The position numbers were made by a program, and so were the translations under genes. From a virus: a stretch of DNA of 35,194 nt. The notes beneath the pieces were generated by a model, which saw only the letters and a program-made list of their open reading frames with translations, was not told the origin of the DNA and ran no database searches. Positions 17,418 through 32,888 of this stretch are shown here, in pieces. How positions within the stretch are numbered: position 1 is the stretch's first letter; the number at the start of each line of letters is the position of its first letter. The stretch covers positions 1 to 35,194 of IMG/VR virus record IMGVR_UViG_3300043219_000028, one strand, 5' to 3'.

Positions 17418-19774
17418 TAACAGGTTTATACATAGGGAACGATCCGACAGATTTATTAGATTTATATGGAGATGAAAACATAGAGATGAATTCCTCTGTT
17501 ACTGATATTGAAGACATCGAAAAGAACACCACGGAGTTTATAAAAACATTTACAGTACCCGCGTCTAATAAAAACAATAGAAAGTTCAAGCATTACTATA
17601 ACGCTGATATTGATAATTCATTTGATGCGCGTATAAAAGTCGAGGGCGGTATTTCTTTAAATGGTTTTGGTTTTAAGTTGGGTAAATACAGGCTGTCAAA
17701 AGTAAGCATGAAGAATAATAAACCATCAAGTTACACTATACAATTTTGGGGGAACTTGATAAGCTTAAAGGACAGTGTAGGTAAAGATTTATTATCTGAT
17801 TTGGACTTATCAGAGTTCGACCATGATTATACGAGCAACAATGTTAAGGCAGGTTTAACAGGCTCCTTAATAAACGCAAATATAATTTATAACCTATTCG
17901 TAAAGAAGCAATACTACTACAGTACTGATCCAGGTGATAAAACTATTACGGACCAATTGGTAAATATTGCTTATGGTGATGGTTTAGGCGATAACGGGAT
18001 AACATGGAGTGATTTAAGACCCTCAATAAGGATTATAGAAATAATAAAAGCTATAGAGGCTAAATATGGTTTTACATTTAGCCGTGACTATTTTGGTAGG
18101 GCTGAGTTTTTAAATTTATTTATGTGGTTAAATCCAAGCGCAAGCGGTGAACCTGGAGGAGGTGAGCAAATGGTTGATTTTGATTCTGGAGATACGACCA
18201 ATTTTAACCTAACAACTAATATAGGTACTTTTGACGTATCTACTAGTATAACTTATAATATAGGGTATACGGTAACAGTAAGCGCAGGATTTGAAGACGT
18301 AGAATATACTGTTAAGTTCTATAAAAATGGTGAGTTATCAACGCAGACAACAGTAACGGGAACGCAAACATTTTTCATTGAGGCTTTAAATATTTCTGGA
18401 ACAGGAGAGGATTTTTTTACATGGGATATTTATTTTGAAGTTTCATCTAATAAGAAATTTGATTATGAGTTTGAAGTATCACAATCTAAGTTTGTAGGTA
18501 CGTTTTTTACAGGATCAGTAACAACTTTTGCGAGTGAAAACAATATAGTAAGAAGGTTTATTGTGTCCGATGAATTCCCTAAAATGAAAGTAATAGACTT
18601 TTTAAAGGGTATTTTCAAGAAGGATAAGTTAGTTATTATACCTACAGACTTTGATAATTTATACGTTAATACATTAGTTGATTATTATGCGGAAGGTGAT
18701 CTGATTGATATTACAAGATATGTTGATAATACAAGTCATGATGTTAACAGGGGTAAATTATTAAACGAAATTAACTTTACATTTACAGAACCTACGACAA
18801 TTTTAAATACACAATTTGAAATAAATACAGGTAAAGGATACGGAGATGAAGAGAACGAAATAAAAGACGAAGATGGAAATCCTTTAGATGGTGATAAATT
18901 AGATTATAAACTTCCATTTGAGCAGATAGTATATGAAAGGCTAATAGATGTTTTTATTAATGAAATTGCAAACGTTCAATACGGAGCAATTATAAAAGAT
19001 GATTTAACTAAAGCTAACCCGAAGCCACATATATTTTATAGCATAAACACATCTTTAGGGAGTACACAGTTGTCTTTTATAGATGATTTAGGGAATAGGA
19101 CACTATTAAACAACTCTATTAACATTCCTAGCCATACAATGACGTTAGAAAATGTTAATTTTAGTACTGTATTTAGTGAGGAATTTAGCGAATGGACAAA
19201 TGTTAAAATAACAAATACACTATATAAAAATTATCACAAGGATTTTATAGATAGTTTATTTAACATCAAAAGAAGAGATTATAAATTTAACGCAAAGTTA
19301 CCATTTAGGATTCTGTCTAAACTAGAGTTAAACGATATATTTAAAATAAGAGATAACTATTATAGGATAAGTAACTATAACTTAAATCTATTAACTGCGG
19401 AAGCTGAATTAAATTTAATAAGTTCTTTTGATGCTGTTATAGGAGGGTTTTCTGCTTCGATAACTGATATATTTGTTGACTACAAAGCGCAAATACAAAG
19501 TATCTATGTAACTAATTTAGGTAATTCAACGTTTGATAAAGTAGATAATGGTTTTGATGTTGATTGGGTTTCAGTATCTAGTGTTCTGAATAATGTTTAT
19601 TTTTCTATTGCATTAAACGAAACAGGATTAACAAGGGATATGTTTGTAGACATTACAAACGAGGGAGCAACAAAAACAATTAGAGTTTATGTAAATCAAA
19701 CAGGAGGTAACGTAACGGTAGACAACACGACCATAACAGTAGATAACAACATAATAACAGTAGACAATGGCTAA
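17414..19774 (+). CDS. Tail tip / baseplate hub protein with C-terminal BACON-like domain
   Basis: 786 aa, the second largest protein. The N-terminal part contains FIKTFTVPASNKNNRKFKHY and GGISLNGFGFKLGKYRLSKV, typical of tail-tip proteins in this phage group. The middle is beta-rich. Residues about 686-765 (VDWVSVSSVLNNVYFSIALN, then TGLTRDMFVDITNEGATKTI and RVYVNQTG) match the BACON pattern W...N.TG.R...I.V.Q. BACON domains are thought to bind carbohydrate or mucin. The last 20 residues repeat TVDN three times. Hub role is inferred from size and position. Confidence 0.65.
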   Translation: MITGLYIGNDPTDLLDLYGDENIEMNSSVTDIEDIEKNTTEFIKTFTVPASNKNNRKFKHYYNADIDNSFDARIKVEGGISLNGFGFKLGKYRLSKVSMKNNKPSSYTIQFWGNLISLKDSVGKDLLSDLDLSEFDHDYTSNNVKAGLTGSLINANIIYNLFVKKQYYYSTDPGDKTITDQLVNIAYGDGLGDNGITWSDLRPSIRIIEIIKAIEAKYGFTFSRDYFGRAEFLNLFMWLNPSASGEPGGGEQMVDFDSGDTTNFNLTTNIGTFDVSTSITYNIGYTVTVSAGFEDVEYTVKFYKNGELSTQTTVTGTQTFFIEALNISGTGEDFFTWDIYFEVSSNKKFDYEFEVSQSKFVGTFFTGSVTTFASENNIVRRFIVSDEFPKMKVIDFLKGIFKKDKLVIIPTDFDNLYVNTLVDYYAEGDLIDITRYVDNTSHDVNRGKLLNEINFTFTEPTTILNTQFEINTGKGYGDEENEIKDEDGNPLDGDKLDYKLPFEQIVYERLIDVFINEIANVQYGAIIKDDLTKANPKPHIFYSINTSLGSTQLSFIDDLGNRTLLNNSINIPSHTMTLENVNFSTVFSEEFSEWTNVKITNTLYKNYHKDFIDSLFNIKRRDYKFNAKLPFRILSKLELNDIFKIRDNYYRISNYNLNLLTAEAELNLISSFDAVIGGFSASITDIFVDYKAQIQSIYVTNLGNSTFDKVDNGFDVDWVSVSSVLNNVYFSIALNETGLTRDMFVDITNEGATKTIRVYVNQTGGNVTVDNTTITVDNNIITVDNG

Positions 19775-20657
19775 GCAAACAATAAACGTAGGAACATCAC
19801 CAAACGACGGGTTAGGAGACACGTTAAGGGATGCAATGATAAAGGTTAATAGTAATACAGATGAATTATATACAGCGCAAATAACAACCGAGCACCCTGT
19901 TTTGATTCCTTTTGATTTCCCTTTAAATAATAAAACAGACCTAAATAGTATTCATGGTTCTTTGTTAATAAACAACTCAGAGGACGGAATTATATTAAAT
20001 AGCGGTCAGGACATTATCGGAGACGGTGGTATATCTAAAGTAATGGCAGTAGTTTTAGCAGGTACAGATCTCGTTGGAGGTGTTACAATAACAGGTGTTT
20101 CAGTAGATAGAAATACAGGAGTAGAGACACCTGCCGACACAGAAGTTTTAAATATAAACGGACTGACTACAGATACAAGCTCTACAGATTCTAACGGTAA
20201 TATTATACATGGATATTCAAATGCGTATTTAAGTTCTAAATGGTGGAAAGGTACTCTAACATTTAGCACTACTGATCTGGACTTAACAGAAATTAGATTC
20301 GCTCAATTATCATTTGAGCAATTTAACGATACTCCAGATATAACATTAAATTCATTCGACACTAATTATATTATATCTAACACTACTGCTGTAATGGACA
20401 CTTATTTATACACAGTTAAGGTTGCGGGAAGTATAGTAGAAATAGAACAAGTAGCGTCGTTAAATCATGAGTCTGGAGAGTTTGTAGGATCAAGTTTCAG
20501 GAAAAGAATAGGTAATATAAATGAAGAACTAGACGGAACAACTGACGGTATATTTATAGATTTATTTTTAGACCCAACAAACCAACAATATTTTTCATCA
20601 TTCACGATGAAGGTATGGGCGACTCAAACACAAACAGTAACAATAGTTATACCGTAA
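19767..20657 (+). CDS. Tail fibre-like protein, 296 aa
   Basis: The N-terminal MAKQTINVGTSPNDGLGDTL then AMIKVNSNTDELY matches the module of the protein at 14833. The remainder is beta-rich with low-complexity Thr/Ser/Asn stretches. It starts inside the tail-tip gene's end (ATGGCTAA, 8-nt overlap) and its stop overlaps the next ATG. Probably a virion appendage. Confidence 0.6.
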   Translation: MAKQTINVGTSPNDGLGDTLRDAMIKVNSNTDELYTAQITTEHPVLIPFDFPLNNKTDLNSIHGSLLINNSEDGIILNSGQDIIGDGGISKVMAVVLAGTDLVGGVTITGVSVDRNTGVETPADTEVLNINGLTTDTSSTDSNGNIIHGYSNAYLSSKWWKGTLTFSTTDLDLTEIRFAQLSFEQFNDTPDITLNSFDTNYIISNTTAVMDTYLYTVKVAGSIVEIEQVASLNHESGEFVGSSFRKRIGNINEELDGTTDGIFIDLFLDPTNQQYFSSFTMKVWATQTQTVTIVIP

Positions 20658-24965: not shown

Positions 24966-24995
24966 AAGGGTGTTATAACAATTGACACCCTTTTT
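24966..24995 (+). terminator. Intrinsic terminator after major capsid
   Basis: AAGGGTGT (24966-24973) pairs with ACACCCTT (24985-24992) over 8 bp with an 11-nt loop, T through 24995. It ends 16 nt before the next ATG, so some read-through must serve the tail-tube gene unless a promoter is hidden here. Confidence 0.75.
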
Positions 24996-25011
24996 AAAAA
25001 CCTTATATAAT

Positions 25012-25527
25012 ATGCCTTGTAGTAGTGATATAACAGCAGGAAGAGATAGAGTTTGCAAGTCTAGTTTAGGAGGTAATTCTATTCTATACTTATACAACTT
25101 TGTTCCAGATCCTTTTACAGTTGTTGCAGGAGAAGCAACAGCAGTTAACGTATTGTTAACAACAGTATTTGCATTTGAATTGGAAGGGGACGGTAATACG
25201 TTAGTTGAAAATATGGTTTCAGACCGTAATACATCGACAACAGTAAACACACAGACCCTTACAGCGATTCTTAAAAAGATTGATGCATCAACAAGTGCCG
25301 AAATGAATTTACTAGCTAAAGGTTATCCTCAAGCGGTTGTATTAGACCGTAACGGAGTAGCGCATGCATTAGGAATTACGGACGGTATTGATTTTACAAT
25401 TGATTCCGCAACAGGTGGAGTTAAGACTGATTTAAACGGATTCACACTTACAGGAGTAAGTACAGAGGGTAGTTTAAGTCCGAAATTAGACCCAGCAACA
25501 TTGACAGCGTTTCAAGCGTTAGTTTAG
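25012..25527 (+). CDS. Tail tube (major tail) protein 1
   Basis: 171 aa from ATG 25012; a TTG start at 24982 would lie in the terminator and is rejected. Begins MPCSSDITAGRDRVCKSSLG, then GGNSILYLYNFVPDPFTVV, and shows the strand-rich, Thr/Asp/Gly composition of tube proteins (FTIDSATGGVKTDLNGFTLT). The protein at 28431 has the same layout, C[KR]..LGG....LY.F.., and the same near-terminal LNGFTL / FNGFTL. Tail tube role is inferred from composition, length and position beside capsid. Confidence 0.65.
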   Translation: MPCSSDITAGRDRVCKSSLGGNSILYLYNFVPDPFTVVAGEATAVNVLLTTVFAFELEGDGNTLVENMVSDRNTSTTVNTQTLTAILKKIDASTSAEMNLLAKGYPQAVVLDRNGVAHALGITDGIDFTIDSATGGVKTDLNGFTLTGVSTEGSLSPKLDPATLTAFQALV

Positions 25528-25923: not shown

Positions 25924-26226
25924 ATGAAGGTATTAGATTTTAATAACACGAACCATTCGATTTCATTAGTTCCGAGATACTACCCAGAAGGGGCGGTAAC
26001 TTTTGAACTATACAACGAAAGTACTAAGGTGAAAACCGTAGTTTCGAACACTTACATGATTACGAATGGCTTATTTACGTTAAATTTTAACTATACTTTT
26101 GAGAATAAAGAGAAATACCAGATTAAATTAGAAGAAAATAGCATAGTATTTAGAGGAAAGTTACTAATAACTGACCAAAATACGCAGGAGTACCGATTAA
26201 CTAAGGATTTATATTACTATGAGTAA
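25924..26226 (+). CDS. Small structural-region protein, 100 aa
   Basis: Beta-rich throughout: MKVLDFNNTNHSISLVPRYY, then VTFELYNESTKVKTVVSNTY, and LLITDQNTQEYRLTKDLYYYE at the end. It resembles small beta-sandwich proteins beside capsid and portal genes in related phages. It overlaps the portal start by 8 nt. The exact role is unknown. Confidence 0.6.
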   Translation: MKVLDFNNTNHSISLVPRYYPEGAVTFELYNESTKVKTVVSNTYMITNGLFTLNFNYTFENKEKYQIKLEENSIVFRGKLLITDQNTQEYRLTKDLYYYE

Positions 26227-27946
26227 CGAAAAGCACACGTCAGAGATCCGTTTGATCCAATTAAACAACTATATCAGACCCGATGTAGTAGAAAACAAGT
26301 CAAAAAATTGGGTTTTAAACGGTAAAAATAACGATTTCTTTGATTATCTTATCAAAAGAAACATAGGAAGTCCTACGAATTCAAGTATTAACGCTTCATA
26401 TACTGACCTTATCTACGGTCAAGGATTAACAAGCGACAATACAGAAGGTTTAAAAATCTTAAATGAGATGTTAAAACCTAAAGAATTGCGTAAAATTATC
26501 TATGATTTCCAGTTATTTAATGGTGCTAAAATCCAAAAAATTAACAAGAAAGGCAAGAAACTAAGACCTGATTTGTTTCATATGGCTCAAAATTTAGTAG
26601 CTCCTTCAATAGAAAATGAAAATGGAGAGATAGAAAACTATTGGTTTAGTAGAGATTGGGCTAAACAATGGCAAAACAAACCCGTATCTTACCCTTCATT
26701 TGGAACTACAAAAGAAGCGATTGAAATATACGACTTAAAACCATATCAAGCGGGTAAGGTTTATTTTTCGGATCCTACGTATATAAGTTGCTTATCATAT
26801 TGCGAGGTTGAAGAGGAAATAGGAAACTACGCATTAAGCCATATCAAAAACGGTTTATCTTTTGGGTATATTATAAATGTTCCGGATGGTAAAGTAATGA
26901 CCACTCCAGAAAAAGACGAATTCGAGAAAAAGATAAAAGAAAAATTAGTAGGTAGTCCAAACGCAGGTAAATTTGTACTATCATTTAACGGTAGAGACGC
27001 AGAAATTACAATTACACCTATTGTAGTAAATGACGCTCACAAGCAATGGTCTTTTTTAACTGAGGAAAGTAAACAACAAATCTTAACAGCTCACAGGGCA
27101 ACATCGCCTTCGTTAGTTGGATTAGTTTCAAGTAGTGGTTTTAGTAATACCGCTGAGGAAATGGACATGATGGAGAAGCAACTTCTTAAACGTGTAATTA
27201 AACCTAAACAAGATTTTATCTTAGACGCTTTAGAAGAGATAATGTTATTTTATGGTGTTGAACTAGATTTAAAATTTATACCGTTATCTGAAAACACAGA
27301 CGCTAGTAATACCGAAGAAATAAAAGACGAAGTAGAAACAGAAGAAGAGTTAAAAAAACCACTTATAAAAAGAGTAGGATTAAAAAAAAAATCTAATGCA
27401 GAGTTGCTAATTGATTTAGGTGATGAAATAGATTTAACAGAATATGATTTAGTTTATGACGAAGCAGTAGATTATGATGATGATTTTGATTTTGAACAAA
27501 GTATAAATTTAGCAAGTACCGGAACAGCTAGACCAAATGCAAAGAGTGAACAAGATAGTGATGATATTGTAATACGATATAAATACGTAGGTAACAAATC
27601 ACCTGAAAGAGAGTTTTGTAATAAGATGATGCGAGCCGATAAGATATACAGAAAAGAGGATATTATTGCAATGGAAAACAAAGCGGTTAATCCTGGTTTT
27701 GGTATGGATGGTGTAGATACTTATTCTATTTGGCTGTATAAAGGAGGAGGTCTTTTATCGGATGCATTTCCTGGAGGAACTTGTAAACACAAATGGAATA
27801 GAGTAATATATTTGAAAAAAGGAAAGAGCGTAGACGTAAGAAGTCCTTTAGCAGAAAAGATAAGTACAACCAAAGCGAGAAGCAAAGGTTACAAAGTGCC
27901 AACGAATGACACGAAGGTATCAATTGCACCTCACAACATGAAATAG
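26219..27946 (+). CDS. Portal protein with a C-terminal Cys/His-containing extension
   Basis: 575 aa. The portal-like body (about 1-400) contains NSSINASYTDLIYGQGLTSD, DLKPYQAGKVYFSDPTYIS, and the helical segment with TAHRATSPSLVGLVSSSGFS. An acidic linker (about 345-445) follows, then about 128 residues (448-575) with REFCNKMMRADKIYRKEDII, NPGFGMDGVDTYSIWLYKGG and GGTCKHKWNRVIY, holding C467, C522 and H524, a possible metal site. The extension resembles a minor-head domain fused to the portal. The portal is the head vertex dodecamer through which TerL packages DNA. It follows major capsid here, which is unusual. Confidence 0.8.
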   Translation: MSNEKHTSEIRLIQLNNYIRPDVVENKSKNWVLNGKNNDFFDYLIKRNIGSPTNSSINASYTDLIYGQGLTSDNTEGLKILNEMLKPKELRKIIYDFQLFNGAKIQKINKKGKKLRPDLFHMAQNLVAPSIENENGEIENYWFSRDWAKQWQNKPVSYPSFGTTKEAIEIYDLKPYQAGKVYFSDPTYISCLSYCEVEEEIGNYALSHIKNGLSFGYIINVPDGKVMTTPEKDEFEKKIKEKLVGSPNAGKFVLSFNGRDAEITITPIVVNDAHKQWSFLTEESKQQILTAHRATSPSLVGLVSSSGFSNTAEEMDMMEKQLLKRVIKPKQDFILDALEEIMLFYGVELDLKFIPLSENTDASNTEEIKDEVETEEELKKPLIKRVGLKKKSNAELLIDLGDEIDLTEYDLVYDEAVDYDDDFDFEQSINLASTGTARPNAKSEQDSDDIVIRYKYVGNKSPEREFCNKMMRADKIYRKEDIIAMENKAVNPGFGMDGVDTYSIWLYKGGGLLSDAFPGGTCKHKWNRVIYLKKGKSVDVRSPLAEKISTTKARSKGYKVPTNDTKVSIAPHNMK

Positions 27947-27948
27947 TT

Positions 27949-28443
27949 ATGGCAGAATTATTATTAATTAAACCTCAAGAGATTACAGAAACCACCATAA
28001 TGGGAGGATCTGTTGATATTGATAAATACACATATACTATTTTCAATACTCAAATAAAGACGTTAGAGCCATTATTAGGTAGTGAACTGTATGAGAAGAT
28101 TAAAACAGATTTTGAAGCTGATACGCTAGCGGGTTTATATCTTGAACTATACACCGACTATGTTAAGCCTGTTCTAAAATATAAAAGTGTTTCGGAATAC
28201 ATAAGTATCGCTAATTACATGTTGACAAATAGCGGACTAGTAAAACCAACTCCTGCTAACAACGAATTACCAACGATAGGAGAAGTTGAAACATTATCAA
28301 ATAGTTACGATTCAACAGCACAGATGTATATTGAAAGGTTTGATAAATGGATAGGCTTAAATCCTTTACCTGAATACAAGACAAGCCAAGACGATGTAAA
28401 CGCTGAGAACGATTTAAAAATAACAGGTGGATGGTATTTATAG
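27949..28443 (+). CDS. Head-tail connector-like protein
   Basis: 164 aa, mainly helical: LLLIKPQEITETTIMGGSVD, then YTIFNTQIKTLEPLLGSELY and LGLYLELYTDYVKP-type helices. The pattern ...ITxxxxxG..D.....I..AQ....P.LG..LY is that of small adaptor or connector proteins following the portal in Bacteroidota phages. It would join portal to tail. It overlaps the next gene by 13 nt. Confidence 0.6.
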   Translation: MAELLLIKPQEITETTIMGGSVDIDKYTYTIFNTQIKTLEPLLGSELYEKIKTDFEADTLAGLYLELYTDYVKPVLKYKSVSEYISIANYMLTNSGLVKPTPANNELPTIGEVETLSNSYDSTAQMYIERFDKWIGLNPLPEYKTSQDDVNAENDLKITGGWYL

Positions 28444-28955
28444 ACAACTATACAAAGAAATGTAAAACCACATTAGGAGGTATAAAGAAATTATATCTAT
28501 TTCCTTTTGTTAAATATTCACGGGCACAAATTAAAGTTTCAGGAATGAATTTAACAGAATTTCCAGACACTTTTATTTATGAGTTTGACGCAATAGGTTC
28601 TTATTCTCAAAACTCAGAAGTAGAAAATGGAGACGTGTTTTATAATCAAAGTTGCACTATAAATTTAAGTGAGGTTTACGATGTTTTAAACATACAGGAC
28701 TTATTAGTACAAGATTACAGAGCGATATTTTTAACAAATAACAATCAGTATCTAATTAGCGGTACACGCAACGGATTAACAGGAACAACGAATAATACAA
28801 GCGGAACTACAAAGTCAGAGTTTAATGGCTTTACATTAGATTTCACAGGCAAAGAAGAAAACCCTTTACTATTAATAGATGATTTGGAAAGTTTAGGTTT
28901 CTTTACATTTAACAAAGAAGAAGTATTTAATTACGATTTTAATTTCGATATATAA
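28431..28955 (+). CDS. Tail tube-like protein 2
   Basis: 174 aa; ATG 28431 overlaps the connector stop. Starts MVFIDNYTKKCKTTLGGIKK then LYLFPFVKYS, and has GDVFYNQSCTINLSEV, RAIFLTNNNQYLISGTRNGL and SEFNGFTLDFTGKEEN. This parallels tail-tube protein 1 (CKSSLGG, DRNGVAHALG, LNGFTLTGV). Two tube-fold paralogs flank the portal block. One may be the tube and the other a tail-tip, initiator or head-side tube protein; the sequence does not say which. Confidence 0.6.
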   Translation: MVFIDNYTKKCKTTLGGIKKLYLFPFVKYSRAQIKVSGMNLTEFPDTFIYEFDAIGSYSQNSEVENGDVFYNQSCTINLSEVYDVLNIQDLLVQDYRAIFLTNNNQYLISGTRNGLTGTTNNTSGTTKSEFNGFTLDFTGKEENPLLLIDDLESLGFFTFNKEEVFNYDFNFDI

Positions 28956-28956
28956 A

Positions 28957-31539
28957 ATGGCAACAAAAAGAATATTAACAGCAGATAAGACAGGATTAGT
29001 CGCAAAAAAGGTTCACGAGAATCAATATTGGGACGACGACTACAACGAGCAAAAAGAAGTTGCGAATAATAACGCGGACGAAATTGATTCTAATAAAACA
29101 GAAATAGACTCATTAACCATAGGTCAAACTGGAGGCTTAATATCGTTTACTACGAAATCTATACTAGACGCACACACAGACGCAGGTAATAACGACAGCT
29201 ACAAAGTAACTAACGACCCTGATAGTTCTAAAAACGGTTATTATCATTGGGACGGGGTATCAGCGTATATAAAAGACGCTTCTTTAGTTGTTTCTTCGTT
29301 AGATAACACTATTAATGTTGATGCAATTGGTGGAAAAGCAATAAGCGACTATGTAGATGGAAATTTAGCAATTGGGTATTATGATACTGAGTCTTTTTAT
29401 ATTGATAAAACAACAGGTGTAAAAACAACTTTCGCTGTTGCCGGGTATGCGGTAACAGGTTATTTGAAAATAGTAAAAGATAAAATAATTTTCAACGCAA
29501 GAGGGAGTGACGGAGCAACTGCAACTATCGCTTTTTACGATGAGGATAAAATATTTATTTCATCACTAAGTGGCGCTACTTTATATGATAATAAAACCAC
29601 TACTTTATTAAGGTCTGAAATGCCATCAAATACCGTATATATTAGGTCTACTGGTTATTTTGAAAGTAGCTGGATATATTTTAAAGACTTATATACTTTA
29701 AATAATGATTTACAAGATAAAATAACACTTAGGAGTGGCTCACAATTCCATAAGAATACAGGTTCTTTTATAAATACTACAGGAGGATTAACCCCTAATC
29801 CTAATTATAATTATACTGACTATTTAGAAATAGATGTTAAAAACGGCTTCCATGTTTTCGGTAGGTCTAGTGCTCAGGCTTCTCTAGTGGCTTTTTATGA
29901 CGTTGATAAAATTTTTATATCTTCAATAAACGAAGATAATAAAGACTCTGTAGATGTTTTTGTGGATATTATTGAGATACCTGTTAACGCTATTTATGTT
30001 AGGTGTACCGGATGGATAGGCAAATATAACTACGTAACAGCTCCTACGTTATCGTCTATTAGTTTAGATTTGAATGATAAAATTACTAATGTAGATGAAA
30101 ATTTAACAAATGTAAATATAGATTTATCAATAGGTTATTATAATCAAGATAGCTTTTTTATAAATAAAAATACAGGAAACAAAACGGCTTCAATTGCTGG
30201 ATTTTCAGTAACAGACTTTTTAAAATTAGGTAGAGATAAAATAATTTTCAATGCAAGAGGGAGTGATGGTGACGCTGCAACAATTGCTTTTTATGATATT
30301 AACAAAATTTTTATATCTTCATTAAGTGGCGCAGCAACATATGATAATAAAACCATAACATTATTAAGGTCTGAAATGCCTGTAGATACAGAATACATAC
30401 GCTCTACAGGGCATTTCGAGAGTAGTTGGATTTACTTCGATAACTTATATAGTTTAAGAAATGACATTAATAATTTAGTTAATGATTCTTGGACTAATAA
30501 AGGTAAATATGTATTTGGTGAAAATATGTTGTTAAATAAAACAACACCTGTGCAATCTGGTATGCCTACAGAAGTGTTATTGCTAACAGATTTATATATA
30601 AAATATGATTCTTTAGTAACAACATATCCAAATTATGTTACAAAAATAGATTGCGACGCTGCAATGTTAATCGATGGAATACCTAAACCTGCTTATTTAA
30701 GCGGATTAGATACATTCCTATATCAGTTTAGACCAACATACGCACCTAACGGAGTTAATCATACAGGAGACCAGAATTATAATGAATTAAAAATATTTAT
30801 AACAACAGGGACACATCCCGAATTCGTGGCAATGGACGCTTTGTATAATCAAATGAAATTTATTTGCGACACTTGGAACACTGATCAAAACGCAGAGGAG
30901 TTTAGGTATAATGTTACTTTTTATATTATACCTTCTTCTAATTTATCAGGTAACGATGCACAAGAAAGAGCAAACGATAACGGAGTGGATTTAAACAGAA
31001 ATTTACCTACAAATAATTGGTTTGAAAGCGGAACGCCTGGCTTTGATTATAGCGGAGCTGTTGCGGGTTCTGAATATGAAACTAAAATTTTAATAAAATA
31101 TTTAGAAGAATTAACTCCTAATGTATATATAGACTTTCATAATTTTGGGATTGATTTTGTAGGTAATTTATTTTATATACAATCATCAAGTCAGTTAGGA
31201 ACAGATATAGACGCAAATCTAATTTCTGAAATAACACGTAAATTTAAAAATATTGATTCTAATATTGCACAAGACACTGAGACAATGGTAGGCTGGGTAG
31301 CCTCTGAGATTGAGGGCTCACGGACTTTATACGCTCACGAAAAAGGAATGTTATCGTTTTTATACGAAACGGCGCTTGGTTCGTCATGGTTAAACGGCGT
31401 TAATACTGGGAGTACTCAAAGGGCTTTCTCATCTTCGTTACATATAACCCAAGCTATGCAAGGTTTCAATATGTTTTTACTTAAAGTTTTAAAAACTTAT
31501 AGCGAAACTGTAAAAGCAAAAGATTTTAATACTATATAG
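28957..31539 (+). CDS. Receptor-binding tail protein with M14 carboxypeptidase-like domain
   Basis: 860 aa, the largest protein. Residues 1-60 form a charged helical adaptor (KRILTADKTGLVAKKVHENQ); 60-130 a small domain; about 140-500 hold three repeats of a beta-rich module; 540-850 match M14 zinc carboxypeptidases: YIKYDSLVTTYPNYV, IFITTGTHPEF (H620, E622), NGVDLNRNLP (N680, R681), YSGAVAGSEYETK, VYIDFHNFG (H728) and LSFLYETALG (E804 as general base). The first metal motif is H-P-E instead of H-x-x-E. Position before the lysis genes suits a receptor-binding protein that trims a peptide on the host surface or in peptidoglycan. The substrate is unknown. Confidence 0.78.
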   Translation: MATKRILTADKTGLVAKKVHENQYWDDDYNEQKEVANNNADEIDSNKTEIDSLTIGQTGGLISFTTKSILDAHTDAGNNDSYKVTNDPDSSKNGYYHWDGVSAYIKDASLVVSSLDNTINVDAIGGKAISDYVDGNLAIGYYDTESFYIDKTTGVKTTFAVAGYAVTGYLKIVKDKIIFNARGSDGATATIAFYDEDKIFISSLSGATLYDNKTTTLLRSEMPSNTVYIRSTGYFESSWIYFKDLYTLNNDLQDKITLRSGSQFHKNTGSFINTTGGLTPNPNYNYTDYLEIDVKNGFHVFGRSSAQASLVAFYDVDKIFISSINEDNKDSVDVFVDIIEIPVNAIYVRCTGWIGKYNYVTAPTLSSISLDLNDKITNVDENLTNVNIDLSIGYYNQDSFFINKNTGNKTASIAGFSVTDFLKLGRDKIIFNARGSDGDAATIAFYDINKIFISSLSGAATYDNKTITLLRSEMPVDTEYIRSTGHFESSWIYFDNLYSLRNDINNLVNDSWTNKGKYVFGENMLLNKTTPVQSGMPTEVLLLTDLYIKYDSLVTTYPNYVTKIDCDAAMLIDGIPKPAYLSGLDTFLYQFRPTYAPNGVNHTGDQNYNELKIFITTGTHPEFVAMDALYNQMKFICDTWNTDQNAEEFRYNVTFYIIPSSNLSGNDAQERANDNGVDLNRNLPTNNWFESGTPGFDYSGAVAGSEYETKILIKYLEELTPNVYIDFHNFGIDFVGNLFYIQSSSQLGTDIDANLISEITRKFKNIDSNIAQDTETMVGWVASEIEGSRTLYAHEKGMLSFLYETALGSSWLNGVNTGSTQRAFSSSLHITQAMQGFNMFLLKVLKTYSETVKAKDFNTI
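29374..30456 (+). repeat. Three-copy intragenic repeat in the receptor-binding gene
   Basis: Copy A (residues 140-248, nt 29374-29700) and copy C (393-500, nt 30133-30456) share long near-identical stretches such as DKIIFNARGSDG, TLLRSEMP and ESSWIYF. At the DNA level AAAATAATTTTCAA is followed by GCAAGAGGGAGTGA in both. Copy B (about 284-362, nt 29806-30042) keeps VAFYDVDKIFISS and YVRCTGW but is diverged. Confidence 0.85.
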
Positions 31540-32489: not shown

Positions 32490-32888
32490 ATGAGACCAAT
32501 CGAACACATAGTAGTACATTGCGCTGACACTCCAAAAGGTGTGTATTTCGACATTGACGACATACGTACATGGCACATCAAACGAGGATTTTCAGATGTT
32601 GGTTATCACTATGTTATTTTATTGGATGGAACTATACAGCTAGGCAGACCACTAGCGCAACAAGGAGCACACGTAAGCCATTATAACCGTAAATCCATAG
32701 GAATATGTTACATTGGTGGTAAAGGAGGTGATACGAGAACTACAAAGCAAAAAGCCTCTTTAGTTTATTTAATCTCAACACTTAAAAGAACATTTAGAGA
32801 CGCTGAGGTATTAGGGCACCATGATTTCAAAGGAGTTACTAAAACTTGCCCAGAGTTCGATCCAAAAACTGAATACAAAAACTTATGA
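32490..32888 (+). CDS. N-acetylmuramoyl-L-alanine amidase (endolysin)
   Basis: 132 aa, Amidase_2 / T7-lysozyme type. The zinc ligands are H10 (IVVHCAD), H110 or H111 (LGHHDFKG) and C120 (KTCPEFD). Y39 (VGYHYVI) and K118 correspond to the catalytic Tyr and Lys of T7 lysozyme, and GAHVSHYNRKSIGICYIGG is also typical. It cuts the amide bond between MurNAc and the peptide stem. There is no signal peptide, so it needs a holin to reach the cell wall. The start is after ATATAATATA. Confidence 0.93.
   Translation: MRPIEHIVVHCADTPKGVYFDIDDIRTWHIKRGFSDVGYHYVILLDGTIQLGRPLAQQGAHVSHYNRKSIGICYIGGKGGDTRTTKQKASLVYLISTLKRTFRDAEVLGHHDFKGVTKTCPEFDPKTEYKNL

Follow-up and report, generated by a model that had tools for sequence, protein, structure and literature searches.

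The window, the whole 35,194-base stretch that was analysed, is one IMG/VR virus record (IMGVR_UViG_3300043219_000028). Fifteen of its genes match Nonlabens phage P12024S in conserved order, with 24-60% amino-acid identity and the terminase at 60%. By this sequence comparison, the window phage is a relative of the Nonlabens phages P12024S/L (Inhavirus-like phages). Because of this kinship, the host is probably a marine flavobacterium.

A modular protein in the tail-fibre slot

The subject of this analysis is an open and intact reading frame at 28957-31539. Its neighbours and architecture are as follows.

26219-27946, + strand: portal protein, upstream context (41% identical to P12024S gp06)
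27949-28443, + strand: gp08-like structural gene (36% to P12024S)
28431-28955, + strand: gp09-like structural gene, directly upstream of the M14 ORF (30% to P12024S)
28957-31539, + strand: ORF of 860 aa with an ATG start, encoding a modular protein in a tail-fibre/receptor-binding position with a C-terminal M14-like domain
28957-29202, + strand: aa 1-82, putative tail anchor (61% over 83 aa to the same-locus protein in relative L174)
29080-29355, + strand: aa 42-133, segment common to Vibrio phage 1.022.O protein NVP1022O_97 (37%)
29365-29721, + strand: beta-rich repeat module 1 (69% identical to module 3)
29728-30081, + strand: beta-rich repeat module 2 (29% identical to module 3)
30124-30477, + strand: beta-rich repeat module 3 (model all-beta, pLDDT 68)
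30592-31500, + strand: M14 carboxypeptidase-like domain, aa 546-848 (Pfam, AlphaFold2)
32490-32888, + strand: N-acetylmuramoyl-L-alanine amidase (endolysin), downstream context

The genes run from the portal through the gp08 and gp09 homologues to the M14 ORF, some small genes, and the amidase, which is a separate lysin. The portal-gp08-gp09-M14 ORF-endolysin order is common to P12024S, where the slot is filled by gp10, annotated as "similar to putative tail fiber protein". The gene-by-gene comparison with P12024S detects no similarity between gp10 and the M14 ORF.

Other structural genes of the window are also of note. The genes at 24982-25527 and 28431-28955 both match PHROG 19091 and are therefore paralogues, a structural gene present twice in this phage. 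P12024S seems to carry paired copies likewise (gp03 and gp09). The N-terminus of the product of 19767-20657, a second candidate tail-fibre protein, resembles the T4 gp9/10 baseplate-wedge/fibre connector (PF07880 at 24.7 bits, cut-off 25; PHROG 677).

Residues 137-507 of the M14 protein are made up of three repeats of ~118 aa each. The DNA of modules 1 and 3 is also 77% identical over 257 bases, and a putative host-contact protein thus seems to have undergone a fairly recent internal duplication (window 29365-30477). Module 3 bears a weak resemblance to carbohydrate-binding domains and to the C-terminal domains of tailspikes, with Foldseek E-values no better than 0.007 and Z no higher than 5. 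Given these values and the low-confidence model, no fold is claimed for the repeats.

Eighty relatives were fetched by their portal proteins, many of them fragments. In the closest, L174 (portal 93% identical), the slot ORF matches aa 1-82 of the window protein and has no BLAST similarity to it beyond that segment. In L185 and L248 a GDSL hydrolase takes this place, and the slot proteins of other relatives mostly carry no recognised domain. The M14 domain is found in 0 of the 80 relatives, many of whose loci are fragments. A conserved anchor with a swapped distal part is what tail fibres with exchangeable distal domains show. The sequence-only reading had called the product a receptor-binding protein, and both the synteny with P12024S gp10 and the anchor shared with L174 back this position. 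A new finding is that M14 and GDSL domains occupy a single slot in related phages, whose hosts are probably flavobacteria. An SGNH domain was also considered for the L174 protein, which has GDS and DGLH motifs. It stays a guess because profile and PDB matches are absent.

In seven relatives (L189, L194, L195, L201, L203, L227, and L245), the protein in or near the slot, taken as the first ORF of 540 or more aa past the portal cluster, starts in a signal-peptide-like manner, e.g., MKKLILFLLPLFALAQN. Such a start is unexpected in a virion protein. These proteins often follow an additional ORF of ~130-170 aa.

The M14 product could be a separately released enzyme outside the tail, as the signal-peptide-like N-termini at the slot of a few relatives would allow. 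The window protein, however, has no such N-terminus, it has an N-terminal segment in common with the same-slot protein of L174, and its repeat modules and slot suit a fibre. Release is therefore very improbable, and the M14 ORF product would sit in the virion tail.

The M14 domain and its shortened metal motif

The C-terminal domain is recognised by Pfam PF00246 (Peptidase_M14) with E=1.9e-14 and 54.4 bits, against a curated cut-off of 21.6 bits. It also matches PHROG 4722, "zinc carboxypeptidase" (E=8.7e-12). Single-sequence searches found no close relatives in IMG/VR or GTDB contigs, so profile searches were needed. A profile of phage relatives finds solved carboxypeptidases with E-values down to 6.5e-28. 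The AlphaFold2 model of the domain (31 sequences) has a pLDDT of 84.5 and a pTM of 0.89. With this model, Foldseek returns 199 PDB chains at E<=0.001, carboxypeptidases on top. VIA-align gives Z 24-28 and rmsd 2.5-3.1 over ~260 residues to TAFI, CPB, CPA, and CPT, with Z 27.9 for TAFI and Z 26.2 (rmsd 2.9 over 260 residues) for 3cpa. The predicted structure gives confidence that the domain has the carboxypeptidase A-like alpha/beta M14 fold.

The M14 placement made from sequence is borne out by the Pfam score, PHROG 4722, and the AlphaFold2 fold. Structure prediction was the check proposed with it, and the outcome that would have counted against it, a fold unlike M14, is absent. Its span of residues 540-850 does hold the domain, with the limits corrected to about aa 546-848. 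The strings on which it relied are all present: GVDLNRN (676-682), YSG..AGSEYET, IDFHNFG with H728, FLYET with E804, and H620-P621-E622.

The profile evidence also bears on what the domain may cut. MpaA, a murein tripeptide amidase, is the sole NCBIfam model matched (E=5.5e-8), although the 32.1 bits to NF007897 lie well below the equivalog cut-off of 157, and it is the best PDB match by single sequence. A peptidoglycan-directed tail enzyme of this type would cut the gamma-D-Glu-meso-DAP bond of the stem peptide and open the wall for DNA entry. In Staphylococcus phages, M14 genes adjoin tail endopeptidase and hydrolase genes, and the domain of phage phiCP24R is described as lytic (PMC9234517). 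With the profile of phage relatives, however, the top matches are CPA/CPB rather than MpaA. The slot in relatives holds GDSL esterases or no recognised enzyme, and the phage encodes a separate amidase. Peptidoglycan is thus an unlikely substrate.

The catalytic residues were placed by alignment of 35 phage M14 domains.

30814-30822, + strand: H620-P621-E622, shortened first metal motif (HxxE in relatives)
30967-30969, + strand: R671, equivalent of carboxypeptidase A Arg127
30994-30999, + strand: N680-R681, equivalents of Asn144-Arg145
31138-31140, + strand: H728, equivalent of metal ligand His196
31366-31368, + strand: E804, equivalent of general base Glu270

H620-P621-E622 has one residue fewer than the HxxE motif, which is present in 31/31 of the canonical phage relatives. 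The first x of H-x-x-E is Gly in every canonical member aligned. The shortening noticed at first sight is real, being conserved in independent contigs. Since HxxE is one defining feature of canonical active M14 enzymes, the protein is classed here as a homologue with the M14 fold whose metal motif is non-canonical. In carboxypeptidase A, E72 lies at the beginning of the helix that follows the motif. DSSP of the AlphaFold2 model starts this helix at aa 623, directly after E622. This points to an unchanged position of E622 and to the loss of one residue from the loop.

The rest of the site is intact. The positions of H69, E72, R127, N144, R145, H196, and E270 are all retained in the window protein and in L012, an IMG/VR relative that also has H-P-E. 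Retention of canonical positions at 37-42% overall identity argues that the catalytic site is under constraint. That the two metal-binding His, the Glu, the two Arg, and the general base persist at 42% identity argues that the site is in use. We know of no active M14 enzyme with H-x-E spacing.

The short motif may instead have ended catalysis, with the M14 domain retained for lectin-like or peptide-binding contact with the surface. H-x-E breaks a motif that every canonical relative keeps, and other catalytic positions are altered in two further H-P-E proteins. A further catalytic change is present in 2/4 H-P-E proteins (R127 to Tyr in L173, R145 to Gln in AbIPP1) versus 1/31 HxxE proteins (R127 to Lys in L002), with a Fisher p of 0.03 among sequences that are related to each other. 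There is also precedent, as vertebrates and fungi have M14 pseudopeptidases with altered active sites, several of which are binding proteins (PMC11266112). The window protein and L012, on the other hand, hold every catalytic residue, including E804 and both Arg, which would be superfluous for a pure binder. The clan also tolerates variation in spacing with zinc retained. PghL, a family M86 member of the same clan, coordinates zinc with His41, Glu46, and His102 in an H-x4-E arrangement (PMC6506827), and this makes zinc binding with a non-HxxE spacing plausible. A purely binding domain is therefore somewhat unlikely. We infer that the domain binds metal despite H-P-E, that it is active, and that its substrate lies on the surface and not in the cell wall.

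Distribution and descent of H-P-E

H-P-E is also found in L012/L013 (IMG/VR 3300019761_000011 and 3300019763_000004) and L173 (3300031992_000102), and separately in Acinetobacter phage AbIPP1 (XJP46979.1, "M14 family metallopeptidase"). Sequencing error as the source of H-P-E is ruled out by its presence in three independent records. This H-P-E subgroup of phage M14 domains is rare and new. Scans of IMG/VR aimed at the subgroup gave no records beyond L012/L013 and L173. By script, 75 of 80 cellular genome loci with M14 have HxxE; of the other five, three have no readable motif and two are short regex hits in the wrong context. Across 395 genomes of the phylum, four hits have a readable motif, all HxxE.

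Members from L012/L013 and L173 are like the window protein in having H-P-E, the KIDCD and SEYE motifs, a C-terminal position, and 37-42% identity over the domain. They differ in their unrelated N-terminal bodies and other phage backgrounds (L012 for the gene comparison). L173 retains all seven canonical positions except R127, and the middle of its protein matches tail-fibre PHROGs. This fibre (L173 4282-6963) belongs to a different phage type and has Tyr at the Arg127 position. It reads NLNRN, with Asn replacing Asp, behind an 8-residue insert.

A tree computed without the motif columns places the window protein, L012, and L173 in a clade with L014 (HGPE) and L030 (HGEE), with support of 99/99. 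L173 groups with L014/L030 inside this clade at 88/58. On the simplest reading of these sequences, H-P-E arose by loss of the Gly of an HGPE ancestor, with the order of events in the clade ambiguous. A single origin for the four H-P-E proteins was rejected, as AbIPP1 branches elsewhere on a very long branch whose placement is unsure. AbIPP1 has the H-P-E spacing in common with the window but differs in its 25% identity, its clade, its R145 to Gln change, and a third His that is displaced or ambiguous. Its protein (L005 3824-4909) reads SFNSHG where others read DFHN. H-P-E, the Gln, and SFNSHG together mean that this annotated metallopeptidase may be a pseudoenzyme.

Proposed role and known systems

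The reading we prefer, held at about even confidence, is that the protein is modular and serves in adsorption, and that its enzyme domain, which can be exchanged, probably still binds metal and hydrolyses an amide on the host surface. The short N-terminal segment would attach the protein to the tail, and the three beta-rich modules would form a shaft or sugar-binding part. Once the fibre contacts the cell surface, the M14 domain would hydrolyse a terminal amide or peptide bond of an envelope structure, with H620, E622, and H728 as metal ligands and E804 acting as the general base. Hydrolysis would fix or clear the adsorption site, by analogy with the SGNH/GDSL esterase domains in the fibres of other phages. 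More tentatively, a functional zinc site of H-x-E type may operate within the M14 fold of a small phage lineage, with a spacing shorter than the HxxE regarded as defining the family. Its specificity might also have shifted towards an unusual amide carried on the surface of flavobacteria and other hosts.

An active domain would extend the metal-binding rule of a textbook enzyme family. Amide cutting would then join the esterase and glycosidase activities already described from phage fibres, and the receptor on marine flavobacteria would be expected to carry peptides or amino acids. An inactive domain would be a phage case of an enzyme fold reused for binding. Because distal domains are exchanged within a single slot, the question can be tested directly, whichever reading holds.

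The sequence-only reading took M14 domains to be unusual on phage tail proteins, but dozens of phage and prophage records have one, mostly in the tail cluster. The window domain matches 13 public phage records, the AbIPP1 protein matches 34, and the M14 profile matches 90 IMG/VR stretches. A search for papers on M14 in phage receptor-binding proteins found none in the collection covered. The zinc carboxypeptidase domain of phiCP24R, described in 2012, was then unreported in viruses according to a review (PMC9234517). Tail-region carriers include Halomonas phage YPHTV-1, Bacillus phages Moonbeam and Pony, Staphylococcus phages StB12/StB20/StB27, and Clostridium phage phiCP24R. Like the window, they have the domain on a tail-cluster protein (22-31% identity where matched directly), and in YPHTV-1 it is also C-terminal behind a fibre-like part. 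Those aligned have canonical H-G-x-E, whereas the window has H-P-E.

PghP/PghL (MEROPS M86) are phage-derived zinc hydrolases that act on a surface polymer, poly-gamma-glutamate (PMC6506827). They resemble the window domain in their carboxypeptidase-like fold and non-HxxE spacing. Unlike it, they form a separate family without equivalents of R127/N144/R145, and their H-x4-E is longer, not shorter. Enzymes on phage receptor-binding proteins are established, among them SGNH esterases, which are functional in other phages (PMC13123978). SGNH/GDSL tail fibres are like the window protein in placing an enzyme domain on a receptor-binding protein, in L185 and L248 in the very same slot, but their serine-hydrolase fold and chemistry are unrelated to those of M14.
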